Positions 6,678-27,816 of a stretch of 27,816 nucleotides of DNA are shown here, one piece after another (position 1 is the first letter of the stretch; every line of letters begins with the position of its first letter). Both the position numbers and the translations under genes were made by a program. Under the pieces are notes generated by a model. The model made no database searches, was not told the DNA's origin, and worked only from the letters and a program-made list of their open reading frames with translations. Source of the stretch: an uncultured Lysobacter sp. GTDB taxonomy: Bacteria; Pseudomonadota; Gammaproteobacteria; Xanthomonadales; Xanthomonadaceae. The stretch lies in assembly GCA_946480055.1 (NCBI GenBank), contig CAMLID010000041.1, positions 1 to 27,816 on the forward strand, given 5' to 3'.

Positions 6678-8354
6678 ATGCTGAACTCGACCCGCTCCCG
6701 CGACACTTGGTTGTTCTGGATCATCGCCCTGCTGGTGCTCGGCGCCGGCTTGGGCATGCGCGACCCCTGGCCTGCCGACGAGCCGCGTTTCGCGCTGGTG
6801 GCGCGGCAGATGGTCGAGAGCGGGGACTGGCTGTTTCCGCACCGCGGGACCGAGCTCTACTCGGACAAGCCGCCGTTGTTCATGTGGCTGCAGGCCGCCG
6901 CCTACACCGTGTTCCGCGACTGGCGCGTGGCGTTCCTGCTGCCGTCGCTGCTGGCTTCGCTGGGCACGCTGTGGTGCGTGGTCGATCTGGGCCGCCGGCT
7001 GTGGACGCGCAAGGTCGGGGTGTACGCGGGCTGGGCGCTGCTGTTCGCGCTGCAGTTCACCTGGCAGTCGAAGAAGGCGCAGATCGATCCGCTGGTGGTG
7101 TTCTGGATCACCCTGGCCAACTACGGCCTGCTGCGGCACCTGCTGCAGTGGCGCCGGGACGGCCGCGGCGACTGGCGGATGTGGGCCCTGGCCTGGGCCG
7201 CCGCGGGCCTGGGCACCATCACCAAGGGCGTCGGCGCGATCGCGCTGCTGATGCTGATACCGGCCGGCATCGCCTCGCTGCGCGGCTGGCCGCTGCGGGT
7301 GCAGGTGCGCGATCCGAAGTTCTGGCTCGGGCCGCTGGCGTTCGTGGCCGCGGCCTGCGTGTGGGTGGTGCCGATGGTGATCGCCGCGACCGGCCACGGC
7401 TCGCCGGAATACCGCGGCTACATGGACGACATCCTGCTGCGCCAGACCGCCAAGCGTTACAGCGCGTCCTGGGACCACGGCCAGCCGCCGTGGTACTTCG
7501 TCCAGGTCGTGCTGACGATGTGGCTGCCGACCATGCTGGCGTTGCCGTGGGCGATTCCGGCCTGGCGCCGGCGCCTGCGCCGGCGCGATCCGCGCTACCT
7601 GCTGCCGCTGGCGTGGTGGCTGCTGGTGCTGGTGTTCTTCACCCTGCCCAACGGCAAGCGCGACATGTACATCCTGCCGGCGCTGCCGATGGTGTGCCTG
7701 GCGCTGGCGCCGCTGCTGCCGGGCATCGTGCGCAAACTGTGGCCGCGCCGCATCGCCGCCGGTTTCACCTGGCTGTTCGCGCTGGGCCTGCTCGGCCTGG
7801 GCGCGGCGATGTGGTTCGGCGAACCCGGCTTCGAACGCAAGCTGGTCGCCGAGCGCGGCATCGCCGAGGGCGCGCGCGCGATGGCCGCCAGCCTGATGGC
7901 GGTCGGCGGCTGGGGCCTAGCGAGCCTGCTGTGGTTCGGGCCGCGGCGCCCGCTGGCGTCGATGGCTTCGCTGCTGACCGGCTTGTGGGTCGGCTTCGGC
8001 CTGCTGATGGCGCCGCTGCTCAACGATTCCTCGTCGGCGCGCGGGCTGATGGCCCAGGTCGGCCAGGAAATCGGACCGAAGGCGGAGCTGGGCCTGGTCG
8101 CCTGGCGCGAACAGAACCTGCTGATGGCCGACCGTCCGGCGGCGACCTTCGGCTTCAAGGTCGACTTCAAGGAACAGATGCGCCGCGGTCTGGCCTGGCA
8201 GGCGCAGCGACCCGATACACGCTGGCTGCTGGTGCAGGACGTGGCCCTGGCCGAATGCGTGGACGCCACGCTGAGCACGCACATGGGCAGCGCCAATCGG
8301 CGCGGTTGGACCCTGGTGCCGGGCGCAGCCATTCAAGGCTGCGCTCCCAAGTAG
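6678..8354 (+). CDS. ArnT/PMT-like (GT39/GT83 type) membrane glycosyltransferase
   Basis: A 558-residue integral inner-membrane protein with about 11-12 hydrophobic segments. The first loop has PWPADEPRF (Asp34-Glu35) and the motif YSDKPPLF (61-68), both typical of the ArnT/protein-mannosyltransferase superfamily. These enzymes move a sugar from an undecaprenyl-phosphate carrier to lipid A, another glycan or a protein on the periplasmic side. A C-terminal soluble part starts near residue 450. I cannot say whether it adds aminoarabinose or another sugar, because no arnBCADEF-type genes are nearby. The ATG at 6678 has no Shine-Dalgarno; a TATCAT hexamer ends 7 bases before it, so a leaderless mRNA is possible. 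Its neighbours are other envelope glycosyltransferases, on the opposite strand. Confidence 0.85.
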   Translation: MLNSTRSRDTWLFWIIALLVLGAGLGMRDPWPADEPRFALVARQMVESGDWLFPHRGTELYSDKPPLFMWLQAAAYTVFRDWRVAFLLPSLLASLGTLWCVVDLGRRLWTRKVGVYAGWALLFALQFTWQSKKAQIDPLVVFWITLANYGLLRHLLQWRRDGRGDWRMWALAWAAAGLGTITKGVGAIALLMLIPAGIASLRGWPLRVQVRDPKFWLGPLAFVAAACVWVVPMVIAATGHGSPEYRGYMDDILLRQTAKRYSASWDHGQPPWYFVQVVLTMWLPTMLALPWAIPAWRRRLRRRDPRYLLPLAWWLLVLVFFTLPNGKRDMYILPALPMVCLALAPLLPGIVRKLWPRRIAAGFTWLFALGLLGLGAAMWFGEPGFERKLVAERGIAEGARAMAASLMAVGGWGLASLLWFGPRRPLASMASLLTGLWVGFGLLMAPLLNDSSSARGLMAQVGQEIGPKAELGLVAWREQNLLMADRPAATFGFKVDFKEQMRRGLAWQAQRPDTRWLLVQDVALAECVDATLSTHMGSANRRGWTLVPGAAIQGCAPK

Positions 8355-9467: not shown

Positions 9468-10279
9468 GGTTCGGACGTGGTGACGGGCTGGCCGTTCTGC
9501 AACATCCACAGCATGATGGTTTTCTGGCGCACGTAGTTGGCGCGCACGTAGGCGTAGACCAGCCCGTGCCAGCCGTCGAGGAAACCCAGCCTCAACACGT
9601 AGCCGCGCCAGAAGCGCCAGGCCGGCGCCAGCACCAGTTTGCCCAGGGTCGCGCGCTTGCCGCGCGCGTAGTCGTGCTCGGCCATCATCCGCGCGTAGCG
9701 CTGGGTCTTGGCCAACTGCTGTTCCAGCGAGCGGTAGGGGTAGTGGATCAGGTCGCCGGGCAGGGTGAGCACCGCGCCGTCGACGCTGGCGGCCTCGTGG
9801 ACCTCGCGCTTGCCGCGCCAACCGCCGCGGCGGCGGTCGAACAGGCGCAGCACGCGGTCGGGATAGGCATTGCCGTGGCGCAGGAACTTGCCGAAATACT
9901 CCGACAGGCGCGCGAAGCGGTAGCCGGCGGCGGCCGCGAAACCGGCCGCGCGCTCGGCTTCGATCGCCTCGCGCAGGCGCTCGTCGACGCGCTCGTCGGC
10001 GTCCAGGCACAGCACCCAGTCGTGCGCGGCCTGCTCGATCGCGAACTGCTTCTGGCTGCGGAAACCGTCGAACGGCCGCTGCAGCACGCGCGCGCCGGCC
10101 GCGCGCGCGATCTCGACGGTGGCGTCGGTCGAAAACGAGTCGACCACCACCACCTCGTCGCAGAACGCCAGCGAGGCCAGGCAGTCGCCGATGCGATCGG
10201 CTTCGTTGAACGCGATGATGCAGGCCGAAAGCTGGCAAGATGCCTGCGCCGCGCGCGCCTGCGTGCCCGCGGCGGCCAC
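9464..10279 (-). CDS. WaaE/KdtX-like LPS-core family 2 glycosyltransferase
   Basis: A 271-residue GT2 enzyme. The signature LSACIIAFNEADRIGDCL (18-34), DEVVVVDSFSTDATVEIA, WVLCLDADERV (Asp93-x-Asp95), KREVHE and the HYPYRSLEQQLAKTQRYA stretch match the WaaE/KdtX/LgtF group. Those enzymes add a beta-linked hexose to the inner-core heptose of LPS at the cytoplasmic face of the membrane. The start codon is GTG 10279; no in-frame ATG, GTG or TTG lies between it and the upstream stop. Only 25 bases separate this start from the divergent ATG at 10305. It is the first gene of a two-gene operon. The group is confident; the exact sugar is not. Confidence 0.87.
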   Translation of the reverse strand: MAAAGTQARAAQASCQLSACIIAFNEADRIGDCLASLAFCDEVVVVDSFSTDATVEIARAAGARVLQRPFDGFRSQKQFAIEQAAHDWVLCLDADERVDERLREAIEAERAAGFAAAAGYRFARLSEYFGKFLRHGNAYPDRVLRLFDRRRGGWRGKREVHEAASVDGAVLTLPGDLIHYPYRSLEQQLAKTQRYARMMAEHDYARGKRATLGKLVLAPAWRFWRGYVLRLGFLDGWHGLVYAYVRANYVRQKTIMLWMLQNGQPVTTSEP

Positions 10280-10304
10280 GTTCGATTCAGTCCGGGATGC
10301 GTTG

Positions 10305-11357
10305 ATGGCGGATTACCTGTTGTTCGCAAGCGAGCGTTATGCGCTGCCCATCCTGCAACCGGTGGCCGATGCGCTGCAAGCGCAGGGGCATGCGGTGCAT
10401 GCCTGGTTCGTCGACGGCGCCGCCGGCGCCAAGCTGCCGGCGCCGGTGCGCAGCATCGGCCTGCACGAGGCCGTGGCGCTGAAACCGCGTGCGGTGTTCA
10501 GCGCCGCCAACTGGGTGCCGCCGTTCGTGGCCGGGGCCAAGGTGCAGCTGTTCCACGGCTTCAATGTCGAAAAACGCGAGGACGCGCGCGGCCATTTCCG
10601 GGTGCGCGGGCTGTTCGACCTGTACTGCACCCAGGGGCCGGCGACCACCGCGCCGTTCCGTTCGCTGGCTGCGCAGGCCGGGCATTTCGCCGTGGTCGAA
10701 ACCGGCTGGCCCAAGCTCGACCCGCTGTTCCGCGACGACGACGGCAGCGCCGCGCGCCTGCGCCGGCGCGCCGGGCGGCGTCCGGTGGTGCTGTTCGCCT
10801 CGACCTTCACCGAGCGTCTGAGCGCCGCGCCGCACCTGTACGACGCGATCGCCGACGAGGTCCGCCGCGGCGACCGCTACTGGCTGCTGACCCTGCACCC
10901 CAAGTGCCCGCCGGAGCTGTTCGAGCGTTACCGCAAGCTGGCCGGGCCCAACGCCGACTTCGTCGAGACCGAGCAGTTGATCGCGGCCCAGCGCGCGGCC
11001 GATGTGCTGGTCGCCGACACCACTTCGGTGGTCTCGGAGTTCGTGGTCCAACGCAAGCCGGTGGTGACCTTCCGCAACCGCGCGCCGAAGGCCCACATGA
11101 TCGATTTCCACGAGCCGCACGAGCTGCCGGTAATGCTGGAAAACGCCTTCACCCCGAGCCCGGAGCTGCAGGCCTCGCTGGACGCCTACGCCGACGCGAT
11201 CCATCCCTATCGCGACGGTCGCTCGTCCGAGCGCGTGATCGCCGCGACCGAAGACCTGATCGAAGGGCGTCTGGGCCAACTCGGCGCCAAGCCGTTCTCG
11301 GCGCGCCTGCGCGCGCTGCAGATCCGGCGCGAACTAGGCTACTGGGGCCGCGGCTGA
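10305..11357 (+). CDS. CDP-glycerol glycerophosphotransferase-like (TagB/TagF family) protein
   Basis: A 350-residue protein of GT-B fold. The start MADYLLFASERYALPILQPV is typical, although the frame stays open upstream within the neighbouring gene. Family marks are the HGFNVEKRE segment (His84), LHPKCPPELFERY (His198) and ADTTSVVSEFVVQRKPVVTF. In Gram-positive bacteria such enzymes transfer glycerol-phosphate from CDP-glycerol to teichoic-acid primers. In this Gram-negative setting the acceptor is more likely an LPS-core or surface-glycan group, and other phospho-polyol donors are possible. There is no strong Shine-Dalgarno. It is divergent from the WaaE-like gene with a 25-base gap and ends before a hairpin at 11428-11456. 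Confidence 0.8.
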   Translation: MADYLLFASERYALPILQPVADALQAQGHAVHAWFVDGAAGAKLPAPVRSIGLHEAVALKPRAVFSAANWVPPFVAGAKVQLFHGFNVEKREDARGHFRVRGLFDLYCTQGPATTAPFRSLAAQAGHFAVVETGWPKLDPLFRDDDGSAARLRRRAGRRPVVLFASTFTERLSAAPHLYDAIADEVRRGDRYWLLTLHPKCPPELFERYRKLAGPNADFVETEQLIAAQRAADVLVADTTSVVSEFVVQRKPVVTFRNRAPKAHMIDFHEPHELPVMLENAFTPSPELQASLDAYADAIHPYRDGRSSERVIAATEDLIEGRLGQLGAKPFSARLRALQIRRELGYWGRG

Positions 11358-11427
11358 ACGCGGCGCGCAGCTTCGGCTTCCTGGCCCCCACAGAAGGCAG
11401 AGGCCGCGTCGACCTCGGCCTACGTAG

Positions 11428-11456
11428 GATGCGGTGAGTCGCAGGCGAACCGCATC
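11428..11456 (+). other. Hairpin / dispersed palindrome in convergent gap
   Basis: GATGCGGT (11428-11435) pairs with ACCGCATC (11449-11456) inside the 157-base convergent gap 11358-11514. The phrase GTAGGATGCGGTGAG..CGCAGGCGAACCGCATC resembles a short dispersed intergenic palindrome seen in many gammaproteobacteria. It may help end both converging transcripts; there is no U-tract. Confidence 0.5.
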
Positions 11457-11514
11457 GTCCATCGTCGCGCCGAGCGCCCGCAATGGCGCGGTTGCCACCG
11501 CACCTACGGCCGCA

Positions 11515-13077
11515 TCACCAGCTCAGCTTGCGCCGGGCCAGGGCCGCCGACAGGCTGCGGTACAGCGCTTCGGCATCGGCGACCGGCAGGAAACGGATCC
11601 GCAGCGGCGGCGCCAGCGCGGCGGCGCCGGCGGTGTCCAGCCACAGCGTCGCGGTGCCGCAGCGGCGGTCGATCGGACTGCGGGTGAGCTGCAGCGCCTG
11701 CAGCTTGTCGATCTCGGCGAAGCGCCAGTAACGCTGCCACCAGCCTTCGCGCACCGCGATCAGCTCGGTGTTGAGGGCGTAGCCGAGCCGGCGCGCGCGC
11801 TGACGCGCCTTGAGCGCGGCCCAGGGCAGCCACAGCAGGGCGAGCAGGCCCCAGGCGCCGAAGCGCAGGCACAGCAGGGCGGTGATCCCGGCCAACCAGG
11901 GCAGGCCGGGCAGGAACAGCCGCCACCAGCTCGCCAACGGCAAGGTGCGCCAGTCCAGGCTCGACCAGCCGGCCTTCGGCAGCAGGTGTTCGATCAGCGA
12001 CTCGCACGCGGCCGCGGTCGCGACCGGCGCCAGTTCGCGCAGCGCGCGCTCCTGCTGTTGGTCGTCGCCGACCGCGGTCTCGATCTCCAGGCTGCGCCGA
12101 CGCAGCAGCCGGTGCATCAGGCCCTCGCGCAGCGTCCAGGCCTGGATCCGCCGACGCGAGGCGCTGGTGCGCCAGCGCGCCAGCAGGCCGCGTTCGACGG
12201 TGAGGCGACGGCCGTGCTCGGTCAGGTTGAAACCGTAGTACTGCAGCAGGGCCAGCAGCATCGACAGCAAGCGCACCAGGCCGATGAACAGCCCCGCCAG
12301 CACCAGCGCGCCCAGCAGGTATTGCAGCGGGCCGAAGTGGTGTTCGCTGGTCCAGCCGAACAGCGACAGGATCAGCTGCCGGGTCGTGCTGGGCATGATG
12401 CCGTCGGGGACGATGTCGCGGCTGTAGGGCATGAACGCGGCGATGCCGGCGCCGACCACGAACATGCCGCGGTTGTTGACCACCCCCAGGCGCAGCACGT
12501 CGCCCAGCGACATCGTCAGCAGCGGCGCCGCGGCCGGCTCATCGACCGCGCTGGCGGAATCCTCGGCCGCGCCGCGACGCCGTACCAGCGCTTCCAGCGC
12601 CAAGGCGTCGGACAGCTTGAGCACGCGCATCTCGGCTTCGGGCTTGTGCCCGCCGGCCGACTCCAGCCGCACCTCGGCCACGCCGAACACGCGGTGCAAT
12701 GCGGATTGCCGCAACGCGACATTGTGGATGCGCGCGAACGGGATCACCCGCAGGCTGCGTTCGAGCAAGCCGCTGCGTACCACCAGGCTGTCGCCGGTGG
12801 CGCCGTAGCGGTAGGTGAAGTACTGCCACAGCGCCAGCACCACCAGCACGCCGACCGCGAGCAGCGACCACAGCTCGTTGCGATCGCCGCGCCCGAACAC
12901 CAGCAGCGCGATCAGCGGCACGATGAACTGCTTGAGCTGCTGCAGCAGCACGAACAGCCACGACATCGGATGCAGTCGGCGCTCGGCGCTGGCGGCCTCC
13001 GCGGCGGTCGGCGCGGCCGGTTCGGATGTCGCGGCGCCCGGAGTGGGATCGCCGGCGTCGGGATCAGACATCGTCAT
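11515..13077 (-). CDS. Membrane protein with bacterial PH (bPH2) domains, YdbT-like
   Basis: A 520-residue membrane protein. Hydrophobic segments occur at about 39-80 (WLFVLLQQLKQFIVPLIALL, VGVLVVLALW), 200-220, 250-290 and 380-420. Between them lie three PH-type beta-rich repeats, each with the pattern of a short strand, G..R..R...R and an I..V..RQS/Q..L turn (for example VVRSGLLERSLRVIPFARIH). This is the layout of YdbT, the larger partner of the YdbS/YdbT pair. The start is ATG 13077 (MTMSDP) or ATG 13071; both overlap the ydbS-like gene (stop at 13064), so the two are coupled. The family has no firm biochemical role; a membrane-stress or envelope function is usually inferred. It is the last gene of the leftward group. 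Confidence 0.85.
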   Translation of the reverse strand: MTMSDPDAGDPTPGAATSEPAAPTAAEAASAERRLHPMSWLFVLLQQLKQFIVPLIALLVFGRGDRNELWSLLAVGVLVVLALWQYFTYRYGATGDSLVVRSGLLERSLRVIPFARIHNVALRQSALHRVFGVAEVRLESAGGHKPEAEMRVLKLSDALALEALVRRRGAAEDSASAVDEPAAAPLLTMSLGDVLRLGVVNNRGMFVVGAGIAAFMPYSRDIVPDGIMPSTTRQLILSLFGWTSEHHFGPLQYLLGALVLAGLFIGLVRLLSMLLALLQYYGFNLTEHGRRLTVERGLLARWRTSASRRRIQAWTLREGLMHRLLRRRSLEIETAVGDDQQQERALRELAPVATAAACESLIEHLLPKAGWSSLDWRTLPLASWWRLFLPGLPWLAGITALLCLRFGAWGLLALLWLPWAALKARQRARRLGYALNTELIAVREGWWQRYWRFAEIDKLQALQLTRSPIDRRCGTATLWLDTAGAAALAPPLRIRFLPVADAEALYRSLSAALARRKLSW

Positions 13078-13594
13078 CGAGATCGATCTGCCGGCCCAGG
13101 CGGTCGCGCAGGCGCTGCGCGTCCTCGGCGTCCAGGTGCGGCACCTGGACCGAGCTGTGGCGGGTGCCCGCGGTGTGCACGACCAGGGTCGCCAACTTGC
13201 GTCGGCGCTGCCAGGGCCCGTGCTTGAGGTCCAGGTGCTGGACGCGCGTGATCGGCACCCGGGTCTCGCGCTGCCACAGGCGGCCGCGGCGCACCGCCAG
13301 GCCGTGATCGTCCAGCCGCCAGTAGGTGTAGCGGAACTGCTTGGTGCCTATCCAGATTCCGGCCGCGATGCCCAACAGCGCGCCGGTGCCGGCGGCGGCG
13401 ATGCCCGCGGCCATGCCCAGACCCAGGGTCGCGCTGATCATCCCGGCCACGCCGAACAGTATCGCCAGCGAGATCGAGGTGCCGAGCACGAACAGGGGTC
13501 TGGCGCGTTCCGGCAGCGACTGCCAGGCGGGTTCGCCCTCGACGGCGCTTGCGAGCGTAGCGGACGGGTCGGAGTCGGATAGCGGTTCGCTCAT
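13064..13594 (-). CDS. Bacterial PH-domain membrane protein, YdbS-like
   Basis: A 176-residue protein. After a 30-residue polar start there are two adjacent hydrophobic segments (about 34-84, GALLGIAAGIWIG at the end). A single bPH2 domain follows, recognisable from YTYWRLDDHGLAVRRGRLWQ, TRVPITRVQHLDLKHGPWQR and a HSSVQVPHLD strand. It is the small partner of YdbT. Its ATG (13594-13592) overlaps the stop of the Sel1-like gene as ATGA, and its own end overlaps ydbT. All three are therefore likely translated from one mRNA and may act together at the inner membrane. Confidence 0.87.
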   Translation of the reverse strand: MSEPLSDSDPSATLASAVEGEPAWQSLPERARPLFVLGTSISLAILFGVAGMISATLGLGMAAGIAAAGTGALLGIAAGIWIGTKQFRYTYWRLDDHGLAVRRGRLWQRETRVPITRVQHLDLKHGPWQRRRKLATLVVHTAGTRHSSVQVPHLDAEDAQRLRDRLGRQIDLDDDV

Positions 13595-19817: not shown

Positions 19818-21302
19818 TCAGTCGGCCCGTTTCCAGGTCGCCCGGATCGGATGCGCCTCGGTGTTGAGCACCACTGCCTTCGGATCCAGCGTCGCCGCCG
19901 GCGCGAACAGCAGATAGAAGTACTTGAAGGTCTCGGCGAGCACGAAGCTCTCCATGTCGTCCGCCTTCTCCTTGGTGACCACGTTCTTCAGCGCCGCGTA
20001 GCCGGCTTCGGTGCGGGTGTGGCGGACGAAGTCGTCGAACAGCGAACGGCCCATGCTGCGGTAGCGCGCCTCGCCGGTCAGGCGATACAGGTACCAGGTC
20101 GATTCGACGATCTCCGGTCGCAGCGGGTAGCCGGCCGAGGTCGCCTCGCGCTTGCGGTAGTCGTAGGCCTCCGGCTCGATGCCGTGCGCGTTCCACATCG
20201 CGAACGAAGACTCCTGCAGGCGCCGCGCGCGTTCGATGTTGCCCGACAGCGCCAACAGGCCGGGATAGAACGCGTCCAGCGCGCCGTAACGGCTGGCCAG
20301 GCGCTGGCCGCTGCGCATGTCGACATGGCCGTACCAGAGCGCGCCGTCGACCTCCTCACCGTAGTAGCGATCGGCGGCGGCGACGCTGGTCTTCCACATC
20401 GCCAGGCAATCTTTGTCGCCGAACAGCTGCCAGCACTTCCACAGATACTCGTAATAGGAATCCACGCGCGCGCCGATATGGCTGCGGGTGTTGGTCCACT
20501 CGCCCGTGACCACGTCGAAGCGTTCGCCGACCAGGCCGATCTTGGAGCGGCGCTTGTAGGTTTCCACCAGCGCGCGCTTGGCTTTGGCGTAGTACACCGG
20601 ATTGCCGGTGAGCTTGCTCAGAGTGCCGTATTCGATCAGCAGGGTGCCGGCCTCGGCCGGATTGCTCTCGTTGCCGTGGGCCTTGCCGCTGCGCAGATTG
20701 ACGTAGACATAGGGCAGGCCGGTGGGCGAGTCGAAGGCCGGCAGCAGACGATCGCCGAGATCGGTGGCGAGCTTGAGCAGGCGCTCGTCGCCGCTGAGCT
20801 GATAGCCCGAGAGCAGGCCGCCGAGCAGGCGGATCACGATCTCGAAATGCTTGACGTCGAGATCGCGATCGAACGAGAGCCGGGTCGCGATCAGTTCGCG
20901 CGCCTCGTCGGCTTCCTTGTCCAAGCCCATCAGGATCATGGTGTCGAGCGCGTCCACCGGCGTCATCAACAGCGACTCGCCGTACCAGTCGTGCGCGCCC
21001 TTGCTCAGCGGCTTGAGCGCGTCGTGGCCCCAGGCGTAGCGCTTGTAGCCGTTCCAGGCGTGCAGGAACTCGGCCTTGACCCGCGCCGCGTCGCGCGCGG
21101 AGGCGGCTTCATAGGCGATGTCGGTAGGGGCTTTCGGCGCCGCGGCCGTCGTCAGGGGGGGTACGGCCGCGGCGCCGATCGCCGAGAACACGGGGGCAGG
21201 AGACGCTTGCGCAAGCGGCGTCCCGGACCAGGCGGTCGCAGGCAGCGCGACCGATACGCAAAGCAGCAGGGCGCAGGCGCGCGCGCGGGACGGCAACGGC
21301 AT
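19818..21302 (-). CDS. Secreted GH47 family alpha-mannosidase
   Basis: A 494-residue exported enzyme. Residues 1-25 are a signal peptide (RACALLLCVSVALPATAWSG) followed by an Ala/Pro-rich linker to about 60. The rest matches glycoside hydrolase family 47, the inverting calcium-dependent alpha-1,2-mannosidases: HAWNGYKRYAWGHD (81-94), LMTPVDALDTMILMGLD (112-128), FEIVIRLLGGLLSGY (Glu154, the expected acid), GARVDSYYEYLWK (Asp281), LRPEIVES (Glu397), DDMESFVLAETFKYFYLLF (448-466) and the calcium-binding LNTEAHP (Thr481). ATG 21302 has GGAG 7 bases ahead; the longer frame upstream overlaps the epimerase gene. It is the last gene of the lacI operon, 16 bases after the AGE gene. It probably trims high-mannose chains in the periplasm or outside the cell. 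Confidence 0.9.
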   Translation of the reverse strand: MPLPSRARACALLLCVSVALPATAWSGTPLAQASPAPVFSAIGAAAVPPLTTAAAPKAPTDIAYEAASARDAARVKAEFLHAWNGYKRYAWGHDALKPLSKGAHDWYGESLLMTPVDALDTMILMGLDKEADEARELIATRLSFDRDLDVKHFEIVIRLLGGLLSGYQLSGDERLLKLATDLGDRLLPAFDSPTGLPYVYVNLRSGKAHGNESNPAEAGTLLIEYGTLSKLTGNPVYYAKAKRALVETYKRRSKIGLVGERFDVVTGEWTNTRSHIGARVDSYYEYLWKCWQLFGDKDCLAMWKTSVAAADRYYGEEVDGALWYGHVDMRSGQRLASRYGALDAFYPGLLALSGNIERARRLQESSFAMWNAHGIEPEAYDYRKREATSAGYPLRPEIVESTWYLYRLTGEARYRSMGRSLFDDFVRHTRTEAGYAALKNVVTKEKADDMESFVLAETFKYFYLLFAPAATLDPKAVVLNTEAHPIRATWKRAD

Positions 21303-21318
21303 CTTCGGTCTCCGGAGA

Positions 21319-22548
21319 TCAGCGGGGGCGCAACAGTTCCAGCGCGTCGTAGCAGGCGCCCATGGTGTGGTAGTCGGTCTTGCCGGCCGGACTCTTCTCG
21401 TCGCTGTACTTGCGGTTCTCGCGATCGAGGATGCGGAACCATGCACCGTGCTCGTGATCGACGAAATGACGCCAGCTGTAGGCCCACAGACGCTGATACC
21501 AGTCCCAGTAGCGCACCTGTCCGGTGCGGTGCGCCAGGCGCGCGGCCGCGGCCAGCGACTCGGCCTGGACCCAGAAATACTTGTCGTCGTCGCAGACCGC
21601 GCCGTCGGGATCGAAGCCGTAGCACAGGCCGCCATGGCGCTCGTCCCAGGAATGCGCGATCGCGGTGTCGAACAAGTGCTGCGCGGTCGGCAGCAGCCAA
21701 TCGACCGGCGCGCCGCGCTCCTGCGCATGCTGGTCCAGGATCAGCAGCAGCTTGGCCCACTCGGTCTGGTGCCCGGGCTGGAAACCCCAGGGCCGGAACA
21801 GGTGCTTGGGATCGTCGCGGTGGTAATCCCAGTCGATGTTCCAGTCGCGGTCGTAGTGCTCCCACACCAGCCCGCCGGCGAGCGCGGCCTGGCGTCGGGT
21901 CATCTGGCTGGCCAGGGTGCGCGCACGGTAGTAGTAGCGCGACTCGCCGCTGGCTTCGTACGCGGCGATCAAGGCCTCGCACAGATGCATGTTGGCGTTC
22001 TGGCCGCGGTAGTCGGAGAAGCGCCAGCTGGCGTCGGCCTCGTCGCGGTAGAGACCGGCATCCTCGTCCCAGAACCAGGTTTCCAGCAGCTGCCAGGTTT
22101 CTTCCAGCCACGGCGCGGCCTCGGCGATGCCGCCCTTGAGCGCACTGGCATAGGCCAGCATCACGAAGGCGACGCCGTAGGCATGGTTGGTGCGGTCTTC
22201 GGCGATGCCGTCGCGCAGGGTCCAGGCATAGCCGCCGCCGACCGGATCGCGATGGGCCTGACGCAGATAGCGCAGGCCGTGGCGCGCCGCTTCGCGGTAG
22301 TCCTCGCTGTCGAACTCGCGCGCGGCCATGGCGTAGTTGAAGACGAAGCGGGTGCTGCTGACCAAGTGCCGGTGCGAGGCGTCGTAGACGCTGCCGTCGT
22401 CGCGGAAGTAGTGGAAGAAGCCGCCGGCCGGGTCGATCGCGCGCGGATGATAGAACGCCATGGTGTCGGCGATGTGGGCGCGCAGAAAGGCGGGATCACG
22501 GAAATCCGGCAGGGTGCCGTCGTGGACGGGGGCGTCGTAGCGGCTCAT
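21319..22548 (-). CDS. AGE-family isomerase, probable D-mannose isomerase
   Basis: A 409-residue cytoplasmic enzyme of the N-acylglucosamine 2-epimerase superfamily, an (alpha/alpha)6 barrel. The pocket residues of the mannose isomerase/YihS and AGE group are visible: Arg67 in STRFVFNYA, NHAYG (121-125), His188 in NMHLCEAL, His260 in GHQTEWAKLL and His394 in DYHTMGACYDALELL. Family members turn mannose into fructose, or epimerise N-acyl-glucosamine or cellobiose. With alpha-mannosidases and a fructokinase-like gene next to it, mannose to fructose is the best reading. The start overlaps the kinase stop as ATGA, with GGAGGA inside the kinase end serving as its ribosome-binding site. Family firm, substrate inferred. 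Confidence 0.88.
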   Translation of the reverse strand: MSRYDAPVHDGTLPDFRDPAFLRAHIADTMAFYHPRAIDPAGGFFHYFRDDGSVYDASHRHLVSSTRFVFNYAMAAREFDSEDYREAARHGLRYLRQAHRDPVGGGYAWTLRDGIAEDRTNHAYGVAFVMLAYASALKGGIAEAAPWLEETWQLLETWFWDEDAGLYRDEADASWRFSDYRGQNANMHLCEALIAAYEASGESRYYYRARTLASQMTRRQAALAGGLVWEHYDRDWNIDWDYHRDDPKHLFRPWGFQPGHQTEWAKLLLILDQHAQERGAPVDWLLPTAQHLFDTAIAHSWDERHGGLCYGFDPDGAVCDDDKYFWVQAESLAAAARLAHRTGQVRYWDWYQRLWAYSWRHFVDHEHGAWFRILDRENRKYSDEKSPAGKTDYHTMGACYDALELLRPR

Positions 22549-23540
22549 GACTGTTCCTCCATCAGACTCTCCACTTCCGAGCGCGGCGGCATGGCCGCGA
22601 ACGCGCCGTGGCGCGTGGTCGCCAGCGCGCCGGTCGCCGCAGCGTAGCGCAGCGCATCTTCGAACGCGTCGCCGCCTTCGAGAAAAGCCGCGAAGTCGGC
22701 GGCCTGCACGTCCAAGGTCGCCAGCCGATGCAGCCAACCGCCGACGAAGGCGTCGCCGGCAGCGGTGGTGTCGGTGGGCAGGACTTCGTACGTGCCCAGC
22801 TCGCCCTGGCGCGTGCGCGTGTACCAGCGTATCGGCGCAGCGCCGTCGGTGACCAGCACGCAGGTCGCATAGCCGTGCCACAAGCGCTGCAGCGCCGCGG
22901 TATGACTGCCCAACGGCGCGGCCAGGAAGTCGAATTCGGAGCGGCTGAGCTTGATCGTGTCCGCCTCCAGCAACGCGCGCCACACCGTCGGCTGCGGGTC
23001 GAAGGCATCGGCCCACAGCGCCGGGCGCAGGTTGAGGTCCATGCTGACCAGCGCGCCGGCCTGACGCGCGCGCTGCATGCCAGACAGGGTCGCGTTGGCG
23101 ATGCCGGCCTCGGTGAGGCTGTTGGAGCAGACGTGGAAGGCCAGCGCGTCTTCGAAACAGTGCGCCTGGTAGTGCTCGGCGCGGAACAGCAGGTCGGCCG
23201 CGGGCGGACGGTAGAAGCTGAAGCTGCGTTCGCCGTGCGCGTCCAGCGACACGAACGCGAGCGCGGTCTTGGCCCCGGCGGTGCGCACCGTATAGCGCAC
23301 GTCCACGCCGGCGTCGCGCAATTGCTCGTAGAGGAAATCGCCGAACATGTCCTCACCGAGCATGCCGACGAAGCGCGCCTGACCGCCCAGTCGCGCGATC
23401 GCGGTGGCGACATTGGCAGGCGCACCGCCGGCGTATTCGACGAAATGACGCGCCTCGCCGGGTCGCGTCGACGGCCGCGCGAGGAAGTCGATCAGGGCCT
23501 CGCCGAAACAGACGATGGCCTGGCGTTGCTCGCGTGCCAT
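22545..23540 (-). CDS. PfkB-family sugar kinase, probable fructokinase
   Basis: A 331-residue cytoplasmic kinase of the ribokinase/PfkB family. The N-terminal start CFGEALIDFLA (11-21), the first PfkB signature AGGAPANVATAIARLGG (38-53), the DLNLRPALW strand (168-176) and the second signature DTTAAGDAFVGG (257-268, catalytic base Asp263) are intact. Length is normal. It most resembles fructokinases and would make fructose-6-phosphate from ATP and the fructose produced by the adjacent isomerase; other ketoses are possible. Its start codon shares one base with the transporter stop (TGATG), and its own stop overlaps the isomerase start, so translation is tightly coupled along the operon. Confidence 0.88.
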   Translation of the reverse strand: MAREQRQAIVCFGEALIDFLARPSTRPGEARHFVEYAGGAPANVATAIARLGGQARFVGMLGEDMFGDFLYEQLRDAGVDVRYTVRTAGAKTALAFVSLDAHGERSFSFYRPPAADLLFRAEHYQAHCFEDALAFHVCSNSLTEAGIANATLSGMQRARQAGALVSMDLNLRPALWADAFDPQPTVWRALLEADTIKLSRSEFDFLAAPLGSHTAALQRLWHGYATCVLVTDGAAPIRWYTRTRQGELGTYEVLPTDTTAAGDAFVGGWLHRLATLDVQAADFAAFLEGGDAFEDALRYAAATGALATTRHGAFAAMPPRSEVESLMEEQS

Positions 23541-24844
23541 CAGTGCATGGCCCTCGCCAGCGGTGCGCCCGCGAGCGCTTGGCCCTGCAGCGACGGCGCC
23601 AGGCGCGAGCCGCGCCAGCCGTACCAGACGATATAGGCGTAGCACAGCAACGGAATAGCGAACGAGGGCTGCAGGCCGGTGCGGTCGGCCAGCGCGCCCT
23701 GCAGCCACGGGATGATCGCGCCGCCGACGATGGCCATGACCAGCAGGCTGGAGGCCTTGCTGGTCATCGGTCCCAGGCGCTCGATGGCGATGGTGAAGAT
23801 GGTCGGGAACATCACCGAATTGAACAGACCGATCGCGAGCACGCTCCACATCGCCAGCGGCCCGCGCAGCGACATGGTCGCGACCAGCAGACCGATCGCG
23901 ACCACCGCGGCCAGAGCGAGCAGGCGCCGCGCGTCGTAGTGGCGCAGCAGCGCTGCGCCGATGAAACGGCCGACCATCGCCCCGCCCCAGTAATAGGCCA
24001 GGTGCTCGGTGGCTGCGTCGCGGTCGAGCCCGCCGATGGACGGCTCGGTGATGTAGTTGATCATGAAGCTGCCGATCGACACCTCGGCGCCGACGTAGAC
24101 GAAGATCGCCAGCACGCCCCAGCGCAGGTGCGGGTGGCTCAGCACCTCGCGGTAGGTGTGGCGTGCGTTGTCGGCGCGCTCGGTGGCTTCGGTCAACGGC
24201 GGAATCCGCATCAATGCGACGAAGGCCGCCATCGCCAGCAGGCAGCCGGCGATCACCATGTACGGCAGTTGCACCGACGCGGCTTCTTCGGCGCGATACG
24301 CGGCCAGTTGGGTCGGCGACAGCGCCGCCAACTCGGTCGCGCCGAGCACCGCGCCGGACAGGATCAGCGGCCCGATCAGGTACGGAAACAGCGTCGTGCC
24401 CAAGGAGTTCAGCGCCTGCGCCAGGTTCAGGCGGCTGGACGCGCCGGTCGGATCGCCGAGCAGGCTGATGTAGGGATTGGCCGCCACCTGCAGCAGGGTG
24501 ATGCCGCTGGCGAGCACGAACAGCGCGCCCAGGAACAGCGGATACGACGGCAGCCGCGCGGCCGGGAAGAACAGCGCCGCGCCGGCCGCGGCCACCAGCA
24601 GCCCGACCACGATGCTGCGCTGGTAGCCCAGTTTCGCCAGCACGCGTCCGGACGGCAGCGACATCAGGAAGTAGGCGCCGAAAAAACTCGACTGGATCAG
24701 CATCGTCTGCGCGTAGTTCATCTCGAACACGGACTTCAGGTGCGGGATCAGCACGTCGTTGAGACTGGTCAGGCCGCCCCAGGTGAAGAAGATCAGGCTG
24801 ACGACGGCGGTGGCCGCGCCGTAGGACAGGGTGCGACCGTTCAT
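23540..24844 (-). CDS. FucP-type sugar/H+ symporter (MFS)
   Basis: A 434-residue inner-membrane transporter with about 12 membrane segments. The start SLIFFTWGGLTSLNDVLIPHLK, then SFFGAYFLMSLPSGRVLAKLGYQ and the LQVAANPYISLLG loop are typical of the FucP/glucose-galactose branch of the major facilitator superfamily, which brings hexoses in with protons. MTSKASSLLVMAIVGGAIIPWLQG in the second half is another family mark. With mannosidases and a mannose isomerase in the same operon, mannose is the likely cargo; this is inference. ATG 24844 overlaps the lacI stop as ATGA. It is the second gene of the operon. Confidence 0.9.
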   Translation of the reverse strand: MNGRTLSYGAATAVVSLIFFTWGGLTSLNDVLIPHLKSVFEMNYAQTMLIQSSFFGAYFLMSLPSGRVLAKLGYQRSIVVGLLVAAAGAALFFPAARLPSYPLFLGALFVLASGITLLQVAANPYISLLGDPTGASSRLNLAQALNSLGTTLFPYLIGPLILSGAVLGATELAALSPTQLAAYRAEEAASVQLPYMVIAGCLLAMAAFVALMRIPPLTEATERADNARHTYREVLSHPHLRWGVLAIFVYVGAEVSIGSFMINYITEPSIGGLDRDAATEHLAYYWGGAMVGRFIGAALLRHYDARRLLALAAVVAIGLLVATMSLRGPLAMWSVLAIGLFNSVMFPTIFTIAIERLGPMTSKASSLLVMAIVGGAIIPWLQGALADRTGLQPSFAIPLLCYAYIVWYGWRGSRLAPSLQGQALAGAPLARAMH

Positions 24845-25890
24845 GCGGTGTCTCCGGGCGGGGCGGATGCGGCGTCGCTGCTGGCGCGGACCTGCAGATG
24901 CACCGGCGCGATGGTGCGCGTCGGTGCCGCGTCGGGATCGCGCAGGCGTTGCAGGATCAGTTCGGCGGCCTGACGTCCGCGTGCGCGCGGATCGACTGCG
25001 ACGGTGGTCAGCGGCGGCGCGCTGACCTGCGCTTCGGGAATATCGTCGAAGCCGACCACCGCGAAATCGTGGCCGGCGCGCCGGCCGCGCGCGGTCAGTC
25101 CGGCCATCAGCCCCAGCGCGACCGCGTCGTTGTAACAGACCGCCGCAGTCGGCGCGGGGTCGCGCACGAACAGCGCGCCGGTCTGGCCGGCCGCTTCCAG
25201 GCGCGTGGGCGCGCATTCGATCAGCCACTGCGGTTCCGGTGTCAGTCCGGCCGCGGCCAGCGCCTCGCGATAGCCTTCGCGACGCTCGCGGCAGGAACTG
25301 GAATCGCGATGGCCGCCGAAGAACGCGATCCGGCGATGGCCGCGTTCGATCAGGTGCTCGGTCGCCAGGCGCGCGCCGCGACGGTTGTCGAGCGCGAGGA
25401 AGTCCCAATCGGTGTCGAGTTCGCGGTTGAACACCAGCACCGGCGTGCGCGTGCCGACCAGCGCACGCAGGCGCGCGCCGTCGCTGCCCTCGGCCGGCGA
25501 CAGGATGATCGCGGCCGGGTCGTGCTCGATCAGCGAGTACAGCACCGCGTGCTGGCGCTCGGCCGACTCGCCGGTGCTGCCGAGCAGGGTGACGTAGCCG
25601 GCGGTGGCCAGGGATTCGTCGACGCCGGCGGCGAACTCGGCGAAGAAGGGATTCGACAGGTCGTTGATCACCAGCGCCACGCCCGAGGACACCTTGCGCC
25701 GCAGGTTGGCCGCGCCGCGGTGGTAGACGTAGTTCTGGCGCTTGAGCTCGGCTTCGACCCGGACCCGCGTGTCGGCGTGCACCAACGGGCTGCCGCGCAG
25801 CACCAGCGACACGGTCGCGCGCGACAGGCCGCAGCCCTTGGCGATGTCGGTCAGGGTCACGCGGCCGTGGCGGGCACGGGTCGGCGTCAT
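24841..25890 (-). CDS. LacI-family repressor of the mannoside locus
   Basis: A 349-residue DNA-binding regulator. Residues 11-32 (VTLTDIAKGCGLSRATVSLVL) are the LacI helix-turn-helix, followed by the hinge helix around AANLRRK (60-66). The periplasmic-binding-protein-like sensor domain runs from about 70, with DLSNPFFAEFAAGVD, AVCYNDAVALGLMAGL and AVVGFDDIPEAQVSAPPLTTVAVDP. It should repress until a sugar from the pathway binds; mannose or a mannobiose-like product is a guess. ATG 25890 is the first in-frame start. Operator-like palindromes lie 47 bases upstream of it and before the divergent GH92 gene, so autoregulation and control of both directions are likely. It is the first gene of the five-gene operon. 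Confidence 0.92.
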   Translation of the reverse strand: MTPTRARHGRVTLTDIAKGCGLSRATVSLVLRGSPLVHADTRVRVEAELKRQNYVYHRGAANLRRKVSSGVALVINDLSNPFFAEFAAGVDESLATAGYVTLLGSTGESAERQHAVLYSLIEHDPAAIILSPAEGSDGARLRALVGTRTPVLVFNRELDTDWDFLALDNRRGARLATEHLIERGHRRIAFFGGHRDSSSCRERREGYREALAAAGLTPEPQWLIECAPTRLEAAGQTGALFVRDPAPTAAVCYNDAVALGLMAGLTARGRRAGHDFAVVGFDDIPEAQVSAPPLTTVAVDPRARGRQAAELILQRLRDPDAAPTRTIAPVHLQVRASSDAASAPPGDTA

Positions 25891-25936
25891 TGGCTGGCGG
25901 CCGCGGCCGCGGCGGTGAGCGGGGTGGGGCGCATGG

Positions 25937-25954
25937 ATTTAGATCGTTCTAAAT
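25937..25954 (-). promoter_or_regulatory. LacI-type operator 1 (lacI-operon side)
   Basis: Plus strand ATTTAGATCGTTCTAAAT: arms ATTTAGA/TCTAAAT around a central CG, the hallmark of LacI-family sites. On the minus strand, toward lacI, it reads TTTAGAACGATCTAAA, exactly as operator 2 reads toward GH92. It ends 47 bases before the lacI start codon. The embedded TCTAAA could double as a poor -10. Confidence 0.8.
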
Positions 25955-25957
25955 TCG

Positions 25958-26009
25958 CCGCATGCTGCGCTCCGAGGCACGCCCTTGCATTCTGCAGTGC
26001 AGCATGCGG
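25958..26009. other. 11-base inverted repeat between the two operators
   Basis: CCGCATGCTGC (25958-25968) is the exact reverse complement of GCAGCATGCGG (25999-26009), with a 30-base spacer. It may be a second regulator site, or help the region fold or loop. It is not related in sequence to the operators. Confidence 0.5.
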
Positions 26010-26040
26010 GCACATCGGGTGCGTGCTAGCGTGCCGGCCG

Positions 26041-26056
26041 TTTAGAACGATCTAAA
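26041..26056 (+). promoter_or_regulatory. LacI-type operator 2 (GH92 side)
   Basis: TTTAGAACGATCTAAA with central CG is the exact reverse complement of the operator 1 core. It ends 62 bases before the GH92 start codon. Centres of the two sites are 103 bases apart. The shared right flank TTCGC follows both on the plus strand. Confidence 0.8.
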
Positions 26057-26118
26057 TTCGCTGCCAGCGCCGCCCGACCGGGTCGTCCGCACCCGGTCCG
26101 TCCTTACCGGAGCCGTCC

Positions 26119-27816
26119 ATGCCCGCCGATTGCCTGCCGCCGCGCCCCCCGTCCAAGCGTCGCCTGCGCTGGCCGCTGTTGCTGGCCTGGGTCATCAGCG
26201 GCGTCGCCGCCGCGGCCGCGCCGATCGCGACCGACGAAGCGGCTCGCCGCGCCTACGCCGCGGTCGATCCCTTCATCGGCACCGGCGGCGAAGGCCACAC
26301 CTTCCCCGGCGCGGTGGTCCCGTTCGGCATGGTCCAGCTCAGCCCCGACACCCAGATCAAGCCGCGCAAGGAGGCCTACGGCTGGGCCGCGGGCTACCGC
26401 TACGACGACAACAGCATCGTCGGCTTCTCGCACACGCATTTCTCCGGCACCGGCCATTCCGATCTCGGCGACGTGCTGCTGATGCCGATCGCGGGCGAGG
26501 TCAGACTCGAGCGCGGCGAAGACGGCAAACCCGGCAGCGGCTACCGCTCGCGTTTCCGCCACGACGACGAAGTCGCCCAGCCCGGCTACTACGCCGTCAC
26601 CCTGGACGACTACGGCGTGCGCGCCGAACTCACCGCGACCGAACGCGTCGGCGTGCACCGCTACGCCTTCCCCAAGGGCAAACCCGCGCACGTGCTGATC
26701 GACCTGCGCACCAGCATGTACGACTACCCAGGCAAGGTGCTGTGGTCGCGCCTGCGTCTGCGTCCCGATGGCACCGTCACCGGCTTCCGCGAAACCCGCG
26801 GCTGGGCGCCCGGGCGTCAGCTGTATTTCGCGATGCGCTTTTCGCGTCCGCTCAGCGGCCATCAGTTCCACGACACCGAACAGGACGTGATCTACAAGGG
26901 CTTCCCGCCGCCGGCCGAGAAGACGCCGACGCTGCGCGCGCAGATCGAAGGCCGGCAGTTGGTCGGTGCCTTCGACTTCGCCGATGCGTCCGGACAATCG
27001 CTGGTGGTCAAGGTCGCGATCTCGCCGGTCAGCGAAGACAGCGCCATCGCCAATCTCGACGCCGAAGTGCCCGGCTGGGATTTCGACGGCGTACGCGCGC
27101 AGGCGCGCGCGAGCTGGACCCAAGCGCTGTCGGCGGTCGACCTCGACGCGCCCGAGCCGATGCGCAAGAGCTTCTACACCGCGCTCTACCACTCGCTGAT
27201 GGGCCCGAGCCTGTTCATGGACAGCGACGGCCGTTACCGCGGCCCGGACAACGCGGTCCACCAAGCCAAGGGCTACCGCCACCATTCCACCTTCTCGCTC
27301 TGGGACACCTACCGCGCGCTGCACCCGCTGCTGACCCTGGTCCAACCCGAGCAGCGCAACAACGACTTCGTCAATTCGCTGCTGGCCTCGCGCCGCGAAA
27401 GCTCCTACGGCGTGCTGCCGGTGTGGGCGTTCCACGGCCAGGAGACCTGGTGCATGGTCGGCTACCACGCCGTGCCGGTGATCGCCGACGCCTATATGAA
27501 GGGCATCCGCGGCTACGACGTCGACGAAGCCCTGCAGGCCATGGTCGCCAGCGCCAGCTACGGCCCCTACGACGGTATCGCCCAATACATGGAACTGGGC
27601 TACGTGCCGATCGACGAAGAGGGCGAAGCCGCGTCCAAGACCCTCGAATATGCCTACGACGACTGGACCATCGCGCGCATGGCCGAAGCCATGGGCCGCA
27701 AGGACATCGCCGCCACCTTCAACAAGCGCGCCGGCAACTGGAAGCACGCCTTCGACGCCAAGACCGGCTTCATGCGCGCACGCAAGCGCGACGGCAGCTT
27801 CCGCGAACCCTTCGAC
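26119..27816 (+). CDS. Secreted GH92 family alpha-mannosidase (C-terminus cut by window edge)
   Basis: The frame is open from ATG 26119 (GGAG 8 bases ahead) to the window edge, 566 codons. The family is usually about 750-800 residues, so roughly the last quarter is missing. Residues 1-34 are a signal peptide with a long basic start (KRRLRWPLLLAWVISGVAAA). Glycoside hydrolase family 92 marks are VDPFIGTGGEGHTFPGAVVP (49-68), GFSHTHFSGTGHSDLGDVLLMP (from 102), FSLWDTYRALHPLL and ETWCMVGYHAVPVIADAY. Glu442 in the last is the expected general acid. LEYAYDDWTIA is also typical. The catalytic-base aspartates should lie beyond the edge. These are inverting, calcium-dependent exo-alpha-mannosidases, mostly alpha-1,2. 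It is divergent from lacI under operator 2 and pairs functionally with the GH47 enzyme. Confidence 0.93.
   Translation, partial: MPADCLPPRPPSKRRLRWPLLLAWVISGVAAAAAPIATDEAARRAYAAVDPFIGTGGEGHTFPGAVVPFGMVQLSPDTQIKPRKEAYGWAAGYRYDDNSIVGFSHTHFSGTGHSDLGDVLLMPIAGEVRLERGEDGKPGSGYRSRFRHDDEVAQPGYYAVTLDDYGVRAELTATERVGVHRYAFPKGKPAHVLIDLRTSMYDYPGKVLWSRLRLRPDGTVTGFRETRGWAPGRQLYFAMRFSRPLSGHQFHDTEQDVIYKGFPPPAEKTPTLRAQIEGRQLVGAFDFADASGQSLVVKVAISPVSEDSAIANLDAEVPGWDFDGVRAQARASWTQALSAVDLDAPEPMRKSFYTALYHSLMGPSLFMDSDGRYRGPDNAVHQAKGYRHHSTFSLWDTYRALHPLLTLVQPEQRNNDFVNSLLASRRESSYGVLPVWAFHGQETWCMVGYHAVPVIADAYMKGIRGYDVDEALQAMVASASYGPYDGIAQYMELGYVPIDEEGEAASKTLEYAYDDWTIARMAEAMGRKDIAATFNKRAGNWKHAFDAKTGFMRARKRDGSFREPFD

Follow-up and report, generated by a model that had tools for sequence, protein, structure and literature searches.

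A cluster of six genes at the right-hand end of a 27,816-nucleotide stretch of DNA from an uncultured Lysobacter sp. (contig CAMLID010000041.1 of assembly GCA_946480055.1; the whole stretch is called the window below) raises the question of whether this bacterium carries a compact pathway for the use of alpha-mannosides. Five of the genes lie on the minus strand in the order lacI, transporter, kinase, isomerase, and glycoside hydrolase family 47 (GH47), a divergent GH92 gene lies on the plus strand, and both directions share one control region (table 1). This is the order given in an earlier description made from the letters alone, hereafter the sequence-only reading, which had proposed alpha-mannoside utilization as the likely role. 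That role is supported by the gene families, the aligned catalytic positions, and the conserved six-gene order, and we give a probability of roughly 0.8 to the interpretation that the locus is a self-contained alpha-mannoside utilization operon.

The family assignments of the six genes proved sound, as every gene product, including GH47 and GH92, passed its Pfam cut-off. Successive overlaps of 4, 1, and 4 bases connect the lacI, transporter, kinase, and isomerase genes, and a gap of 16 bases separates the isomerase gene from the GH47 gene; the minus-strand genes are thus spaced as in one operon. The nearest genome (G001), taken as Lysobacter sp. Root76, is 95.6% identical to the window at the nucleotide level over a stretch of 11.2 kb that reaches from rpoD to the end of the window. 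This match gives good support to Lysobacter as the host, and G001 served as the reference for the full-length GH92 and for the right-hand flank.

The GH47 protein matched PF01532 over the whole domain (418.4 bits, model positions 2–454 of 455). Its best solved relative is 4ayo from Caulobacter K31 (E-value 2.3e-80). It matched 16 solved GH47 sequences, of which 14 bear the name alpha-1,2-mannosidase. Four residues of the window protein, E154, D281, E397, and T481, have counterparts in the motifs of 4ayo, a bacterial enzyme of the same family whose aligned catalytic residues are identical. We take E154, D281, and E397 to be the catalytic positions and T481 to be the calcium-site threonine. The Caulobacter model enzyme has been reported to hydrolyze alpha-1,2-mannobiose (PMC10685318). 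Judging from these alignments, the window GH47 is likely to be an exo alpha-1,2-mannosidase.

The part of GH92 that lies within the window matched PF17678 (269.7 bits, 2–236 of 236), PF07971 (301.3 bits, 2–262 of 464), and, above its cut-off, TIGR01180 (430.7 bits). In G001, the complete copy has 793 residues and is covered by PF07971 at 2–463, and 544 of the 566 residues shared with the window are identical. The general acid E578 and the GNDD motif at position 679 of this ortholog align with those of solved GH92 enzymes; the general acid and the base both lie past the window end. The subgroup comparison was made on the full G001 copy and not on the cut frame. Against solved enzymes, this copy scored 661.9 bits with 6f91, 625.8 bits with 7zgm, and 584.6 bits with 6f8z, followed by 2wvy (410.6 bits) and 2wvx (385 bits). 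We take 6f91 to be BT3965 and 7zgm to be the plant-N-glycan alpha-1,3-mannosidase described in PMC9522356. The chain 6F8Z is BT3130 (PMC9522356).

Members of the alpha-1,2 subgroup of GH92 are described as having a Trp/His/Glu triad at the +1 subsite (PMC5930347; PMC9522356). When the G001 copy was aligned to 2wvx_B, this triad was not kept in register: a Gly stands opposite Trp88, and opposite His584-Glu585 the G001 protein has Glu-His, with the order reversed. The residue numbers of the literature fit the 2wvx_B chain at an offset of 19, and the acid Glu533 fits likewise. Pro520 and Trp526, which narrow the BT3965 site, are also absent from the G001 protein, as read from the alignments. The sequence-only reading had regarded GH92 as mostly alpha-1,2-specific; with the triad out of register and the best scores going to solved structures from the other group, this assignment is not supported, and the protein most likely falls outside the alpha-1,2 group and nearer the alpha-1,3 or multi-specific enzymes. 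Its specificity stays uncertain because the top-scoring solved relative is an exceptional alpha-1,4 enzyme. Since GH92 does not appear to fit the alpha-1,2 group, the two hydrolases are likely to be complementary (alpha-1,2 plus alpha-1,3 or broad) rather than redundant.

The isomerase-kinase route of the sequence-only reading is also supported. The AGE-family isomerase matched PF07221 with 400.5 bits, and its solved relatives are 3gt5 (649 bits) and 5x32 (516.5 bits), the latter presumably a Marinomonas mannose isomerase. Three of its histidines, H188, H260, and H394, correspond by motif to His179, His251, and His395 of the mannose isomerase of Pseudomonas geniculata, a kinetically characterized enzyme with a three-histidine active center (PMC7762179). 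The kinase matched PF00294 (200.2 bits), and the nearest solved chain, 3ljs (E-value 5.2e-115), is named a fructokinase. The transporter matched PF07690 (72.2 bits) and exceeded the cut-off of the gluP model TIGR01272 (343 bits vs. 202.55), whereas its score with the fucP model TIGR00885 (279.2 bits) was just below the cut-off of 280.4; its sole matches in PDB are 3o7q and 3o7p, the L-fucose-proton symporter. Because the gluP cut-off was passed and the fucP cut-off narrowly missed, hexose symporter is the better label. Permease, isomerase, and kinase all sit in the LacI-linked unit, as in ManR-type mannoside pathways.

Two predicted operators, O1 on the GH92 side and O2 on the LacI side, have 16-bp cores that are exact reverse complements of each other, that is, two inverted copies of one palindrome. 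In the window, the operator pattern gave two matches at up to three mismatches, where 0.07 were expected and none of 100 shuffles reached two. Because this pattern was derived from the same two sites, independent support for the operators comes from their conservation in relatives. The exact motif TTTAGA-N4-TCTAAA occurs at only two places in G001, the counterparts of O1 and O2, and sites were found in five of the seven genomes searched, compared with none for the reversed control. When up to three mismatches were allowed, G001 showed one additional site versus four for the reversed control, and loose matches therefore carry little meaning. A second search used the consensus of the relatives at no more than one mismatch and covered ten genomes, from 11 named loci without L061 (the Root76 genome recurs among the ten). 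All 18 sites, in 10 of 10 genomes, fell in this control region; with the reversed control, a single site turned up, in one of the genomes. Operator pairs at up to four mismatches were present in 16 of 20 control regions, with a spacing of 98–103 bp in 15 of these 16 and of 90 bp in L064.

The distance from O1 to the GH92 start is 62 bases and that from O2 to the lacI start is 47 bases, a placement that would suit a repressor of both directions. Together with their conservation in relatives, the two sites, predicted at one promoter each, agree with the earlier proposal of a single LacI regulator, and the control region is, for predicted operators, unusually regular and clean. In the related species G016, an operator pair was also found in front of a TonB-dependent receptor gene, which we count in favor of the mannoside interpretation. 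This receptor gene (L022, 6305–9457) lies ~12 kb from the GH92/LacI locus of that species. DNA looping by a tetrameric repressor was considered, since the operators are regularly spaced, but is not preferred. The C-terminus of the 349-residue LacI protein shows no evident heptad tail of the kind found in E. coli LacI, and two dimers seem the more probable form.

A third palindrome is located midway between O2 and O1. Its exact consensus was found in five of seven genomes (G001, G013, G014, G016, and G067), once in each and always at this control region, and was absent from the other two genomes searched (G062 and G063). Loose matches with one or two mismatches elsewhere in G013, G014, G062, G063, and G067 occurred at about the frequency of the reversed control and have no meaning alone. 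In G016, there are only two other such places, with two mismatches each, and both adjoin the operators of two TonB-receptor genes. The palindrome lies 16 bases before the hexamer GTGCTA at GH92 and at one of these G016 TonB-receptor promoters, and the distance from GTGCTA to the operator start is 12 bases at GH92 and 16 bases at that receptor promoter. Among 14 loci scored with a consensus that was drawn partly from some of the same loci, eight carry the palindrome with at most two mismatches, which none of the 200 shuffles made for each locus attained; in L062, L063, L068, L084, L086, and L091, it has 3–4 mismatches, reached by 0–2 of 200 shuffles. A tentative and rather doubtful suggestion is that, in Lysobacter and its relatives, a second protein besides LacI might bind this palindrome near the -35 region and help to switch both operon promoters, as well as TonB-receptor promoters in one related species. 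Two points lower the odds of such dual control: the distance to the operator is not the same at the two promoters, and the loose matches are at control level.

The conservation survey covered 80 of the 227 loci found with a GH47 relative; as the loci were collected by GH47, those lacking this gene are uncounted. All six genes in identical order were present in 11 of the 80 loci (L060–L063, L068–L070, L083, L084, L086, and L091, where L060 is the G001 locus), and the arrangement is therefore conserved in relatives and not unique. Four further loci miss one gene in the search, either the transporter (L064, L065, and L067) or lacI (L085). Only GH92, transporter, and GH47 were matched on the short contig L066, and the remaining loci belong to larger clusters, stand in other contexts, or are on short contigs. 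At the rpoD-side locus of four genomes of the same genus (G012, G013, G014, and G016), GH92 and the isomerase are kept and no GH47 match was found. In L023, L024, L026, and L028, rpoD-side loci of four same-genus species, LacI, transporter, kinase, and GH47 are absent in varied combinations.

We infer the following scheme, in which export, substrate, transport specificity, effector, and repression are all predicted. Exported GH47 (alpha-1,2) and GH92 (alpha-1,3 or broad) would release terminal mannose from eukaryotic glycans, for example, high-mannose N-glycans and mannoproteins, and fungal prey is a possible target. The GluP/FucP-type symporter would import the mannose, the AGE-family isomerase would turn it into fructose, and fructose would be phosphorylated to fructose-6-phosphate by the PfkB kinase. 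LacI may bind one operator per divergent promoter and repress both until mannose or a mannose product is bound. For uptake, it would be enough if glycans were trimmed down to mannose on the outer side of the inner membrane.

The sequence-only reading had expected the locus to continue with more glycosidases. In G001, where we read the right-hand side (this is not the window's own flank), no further glycosidase or sugar gene was recognized after GH92. Instead, ~3.4 kb without a selected reading frame is followed by genes for a phage capsid, an IstB-like ATPase, and a tyrosine integrase beside tRNA-Met, and these genes (L010, 6349–12973) probably form an integrated element. A single GH76 match in G001 was rejected. 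It lies inside the AGE gene at position 500859 (23.3 bits alone and 28.4 bits with neighbors, against a Pfam cut-off of 25.9), and the window AGE protein itself gives 24.2 bits to the GH76 model.

Several observations weigh against a self-contained mannoside operon. On the enzymatic side, GH38 and GH125 were each found in none of seven genomes, G001 included, and there is no true GH76 in G001; for this reason, we do not expect alpha-1,6-linked mannan to be broken down completely. No outer-membrane receptor under the operator, and no operator outside this control region, was detected in G001, and the TonB receptor of G016 was matched at an E-value of at most 1e-100 in two of eight genomes, G001 not among them. 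On the regulatory side, a search of 25800–26200 revealed no consensus sigma-70 promoter, and four of the 20 control regions lack two recognizable operators (one in L069 and G012, none in L070 and L085). In L069 and L070, two diverged palindromes stand at a spacing of 101 bp, and L085, with neither a lacI found at the locus nor an operator, was counted for the link between LacI and operator. The rpoD-side loci of G012, G013, and G014 keep at least one operator, yet no lacI was found there, and another regulator may therefore read the operators in these species. Finally, two NCBIfam models fell short of their cut-offs, the D-mannose isomerase model NF051846 (229.6 bits, cut-off 600) for the isomerase and the fructokinase model PRK09434 (215.6 bits, cut-off 450) for the kinase. 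The missed cut-offs would fit an AGE protein and kinase that serve another sugar (glucose/fructose, lyxose/xylulose, or an amino sugar), in which case the pathway would not be for mannose, and the P. geniculata isomerase also interconverts glucose/fructose and lyxose/xylulose. This enzyme has its lowest Km for mannose (PMC7762179), and in the window the isomerase and kinase use the same control region as two alpha-mannosidase genes, so that a different sugar appears very unlikely. The absence of GH38, GH125, and a true GH76 also bears on the target of the hydrolases. It would favor an operon directed at mannose in free form, at short manno-oligosaccharides, or at further mannosylated products (GPI or O-mannosyl glycans of fungi, for example) and less at high-mannose N-glycans, with the hydrolases as auxiliaries. 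The four same-genus species that keep GH92 and isomerase without a GH47 match at this locus point the same way, and the proteins scanned, those of the locus and of its surroundings, included none recognized as releasing N-glycans from protein, although no genome-wide search was made. With GH47 retained in the 11 complete loci (of a set collected by GH47), and with the alpha-1,2-mannosidase names of nearly all its solved matches, auxiliary hydrolases seem a possible but less convincing explanation.

The history of the locus offers another alternative. A larger second cluster in Lysobacter, Luteimonas, Pseudoxanthomonas, and Stenotrophomonas has the same LacI, transporter, kinase, isomerase, and GH47 families as the window, and six of the genomes examined (G012, G013, G014, G016, G028, and G035) carry it. 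It differs in its GH92, which is only ~32–35% identical, and in the GH2 and TonB-receptor genes demonstrated in G016, where the cluster GH47 has a lipoprotein-like start. G001 has one GH47 and one GH92 and hence no second cluster, and its locus could be regarded as a reduced relic of the larger one, with a GH47 acquired from it. The GH47 tree does not favor such an origin. The window copy clusters (support 0.917) with those from small loci in Lysobacter and Luteimonas and is separated from the big-cluster copies, five of which are 68–69% identical to it, and we regard the relic explanation as highly improbable. The small-locus copies do not form one clade in this tree, with Dokdonella and three metagenome-assembled genomes placed elsewhere.

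The alpha-mannoside operon favored here has close counterparts in published systems. In Shewanella, a mannoside pathway comprising manR, manP, manI, manK, and omp-Man was published in 2010 (PMC2996990). As compared by its table listing, it resembles the window in combining a regulator, a permease, an isomerase-type manI, and a kinase-type manK in one mannoside pathway, and differs in additionally listing an outer-membrane transporter and two regulators. A comparative-genomics survey of 2014 assigned five LacI orthologous groups to mannose and mannosides (PMC4052901); these ManR groups are of the LacI family, like the window regulator, and its main text contains no word that starts with "xanthomon". 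The nix N-glycan cluster of Xanthomonas campestris, a bacterium of the same family as the window host, includes a TonB receptor plus nine genes, nixD-L (PMC5700972), and likewise concerns N-glycan scavenging. It is far larger than the window locus, which has two hydrolases and no fucosidase, galactosidase, or receptor gene. According to a review of bacterial N-glycan breakdown, GH38, GH92, and GH125 are the exo-mannosidases so far characterized on high-mannose N-glycans; GH47 is not mentioned in it (PMC10154615).

Among the matches listed in the open-licence literature (titles, abstract starts, and passages), no description of the six-gene arrangement was found, nor did anything combine Lysobacter with GH47 and GH92, or Xanthomonadales with LacI regulon, mannose, and TonB. 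The suggestion that the arrangement is distinct is nevertheless not supported, given the same order in 11 of 80 loci and the published manR/manP/manI/manK pathway of Shewanella. The parts and logic of the operon are already known, and the six genes are an ordinary, sound example with a clean control region.

Table 1. Features of the mannoside locus in the window, with predicted functions
Feature	Position	Strand	Basis
GH47 alpha-1,2-mannosidase, 494 aa	19818..21302	-	PF01532; signal-peptide-like N-terminal stretch
AGE-family D-mannose isomerase (mannose to fructose), 409 aa	21319..22548	-	PF07221; three-histidine center
PfkB-family kinase, most likely fructokinase, 331 aa	22545..23540	-	PF00294
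GluP/FucP-type MFS hexose symporter, 434 aa	23540..24844	-	PF07690, TIGR01272
LacI-family regulator (ManR-like), 349 aa	24841..25890	-	PF00356 + PF13377
Operator O2 TTTAGATCGTTCTAAA, LacI side	25938..25953	.	Predicted; palindrome match and conservation
Central palindrome, 20 bp, between operators	25987..26006	.	Sequence symmetry and conservation
Operator O1 TTTAGAACGATCTAAA, GH92 side, 103 bp from O2	26041..26056	.	Predicted; palindrome match and conservation
GH92 alpha-mannosidase, first 566 of ~793 residues, gene cut by window end	26119..27816	+	PF17678 + PF07971

Elsewhere in the window, a PMT-like glycosyltransferase (PF13231, PF02366) is encoded at 6678–8354 and is unlinked to the mannoside operon. 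Two adjoining long plus-strand frames of 623 and 597 aa, without a Pfam match, occupy 9566–13227. At gathering thresholds, Rfam gave no match anywhere in the window.

Sister species carry partial versions of the mannoside unit, and the conserved central palindrome provides a concrete lead to a second regulator. For Lysobacter, the locus would represent a small, well-delimited unit for removing mannose from eukaryotic glycans, with a predicted repressor, predicted operators, and a predicted pathway.

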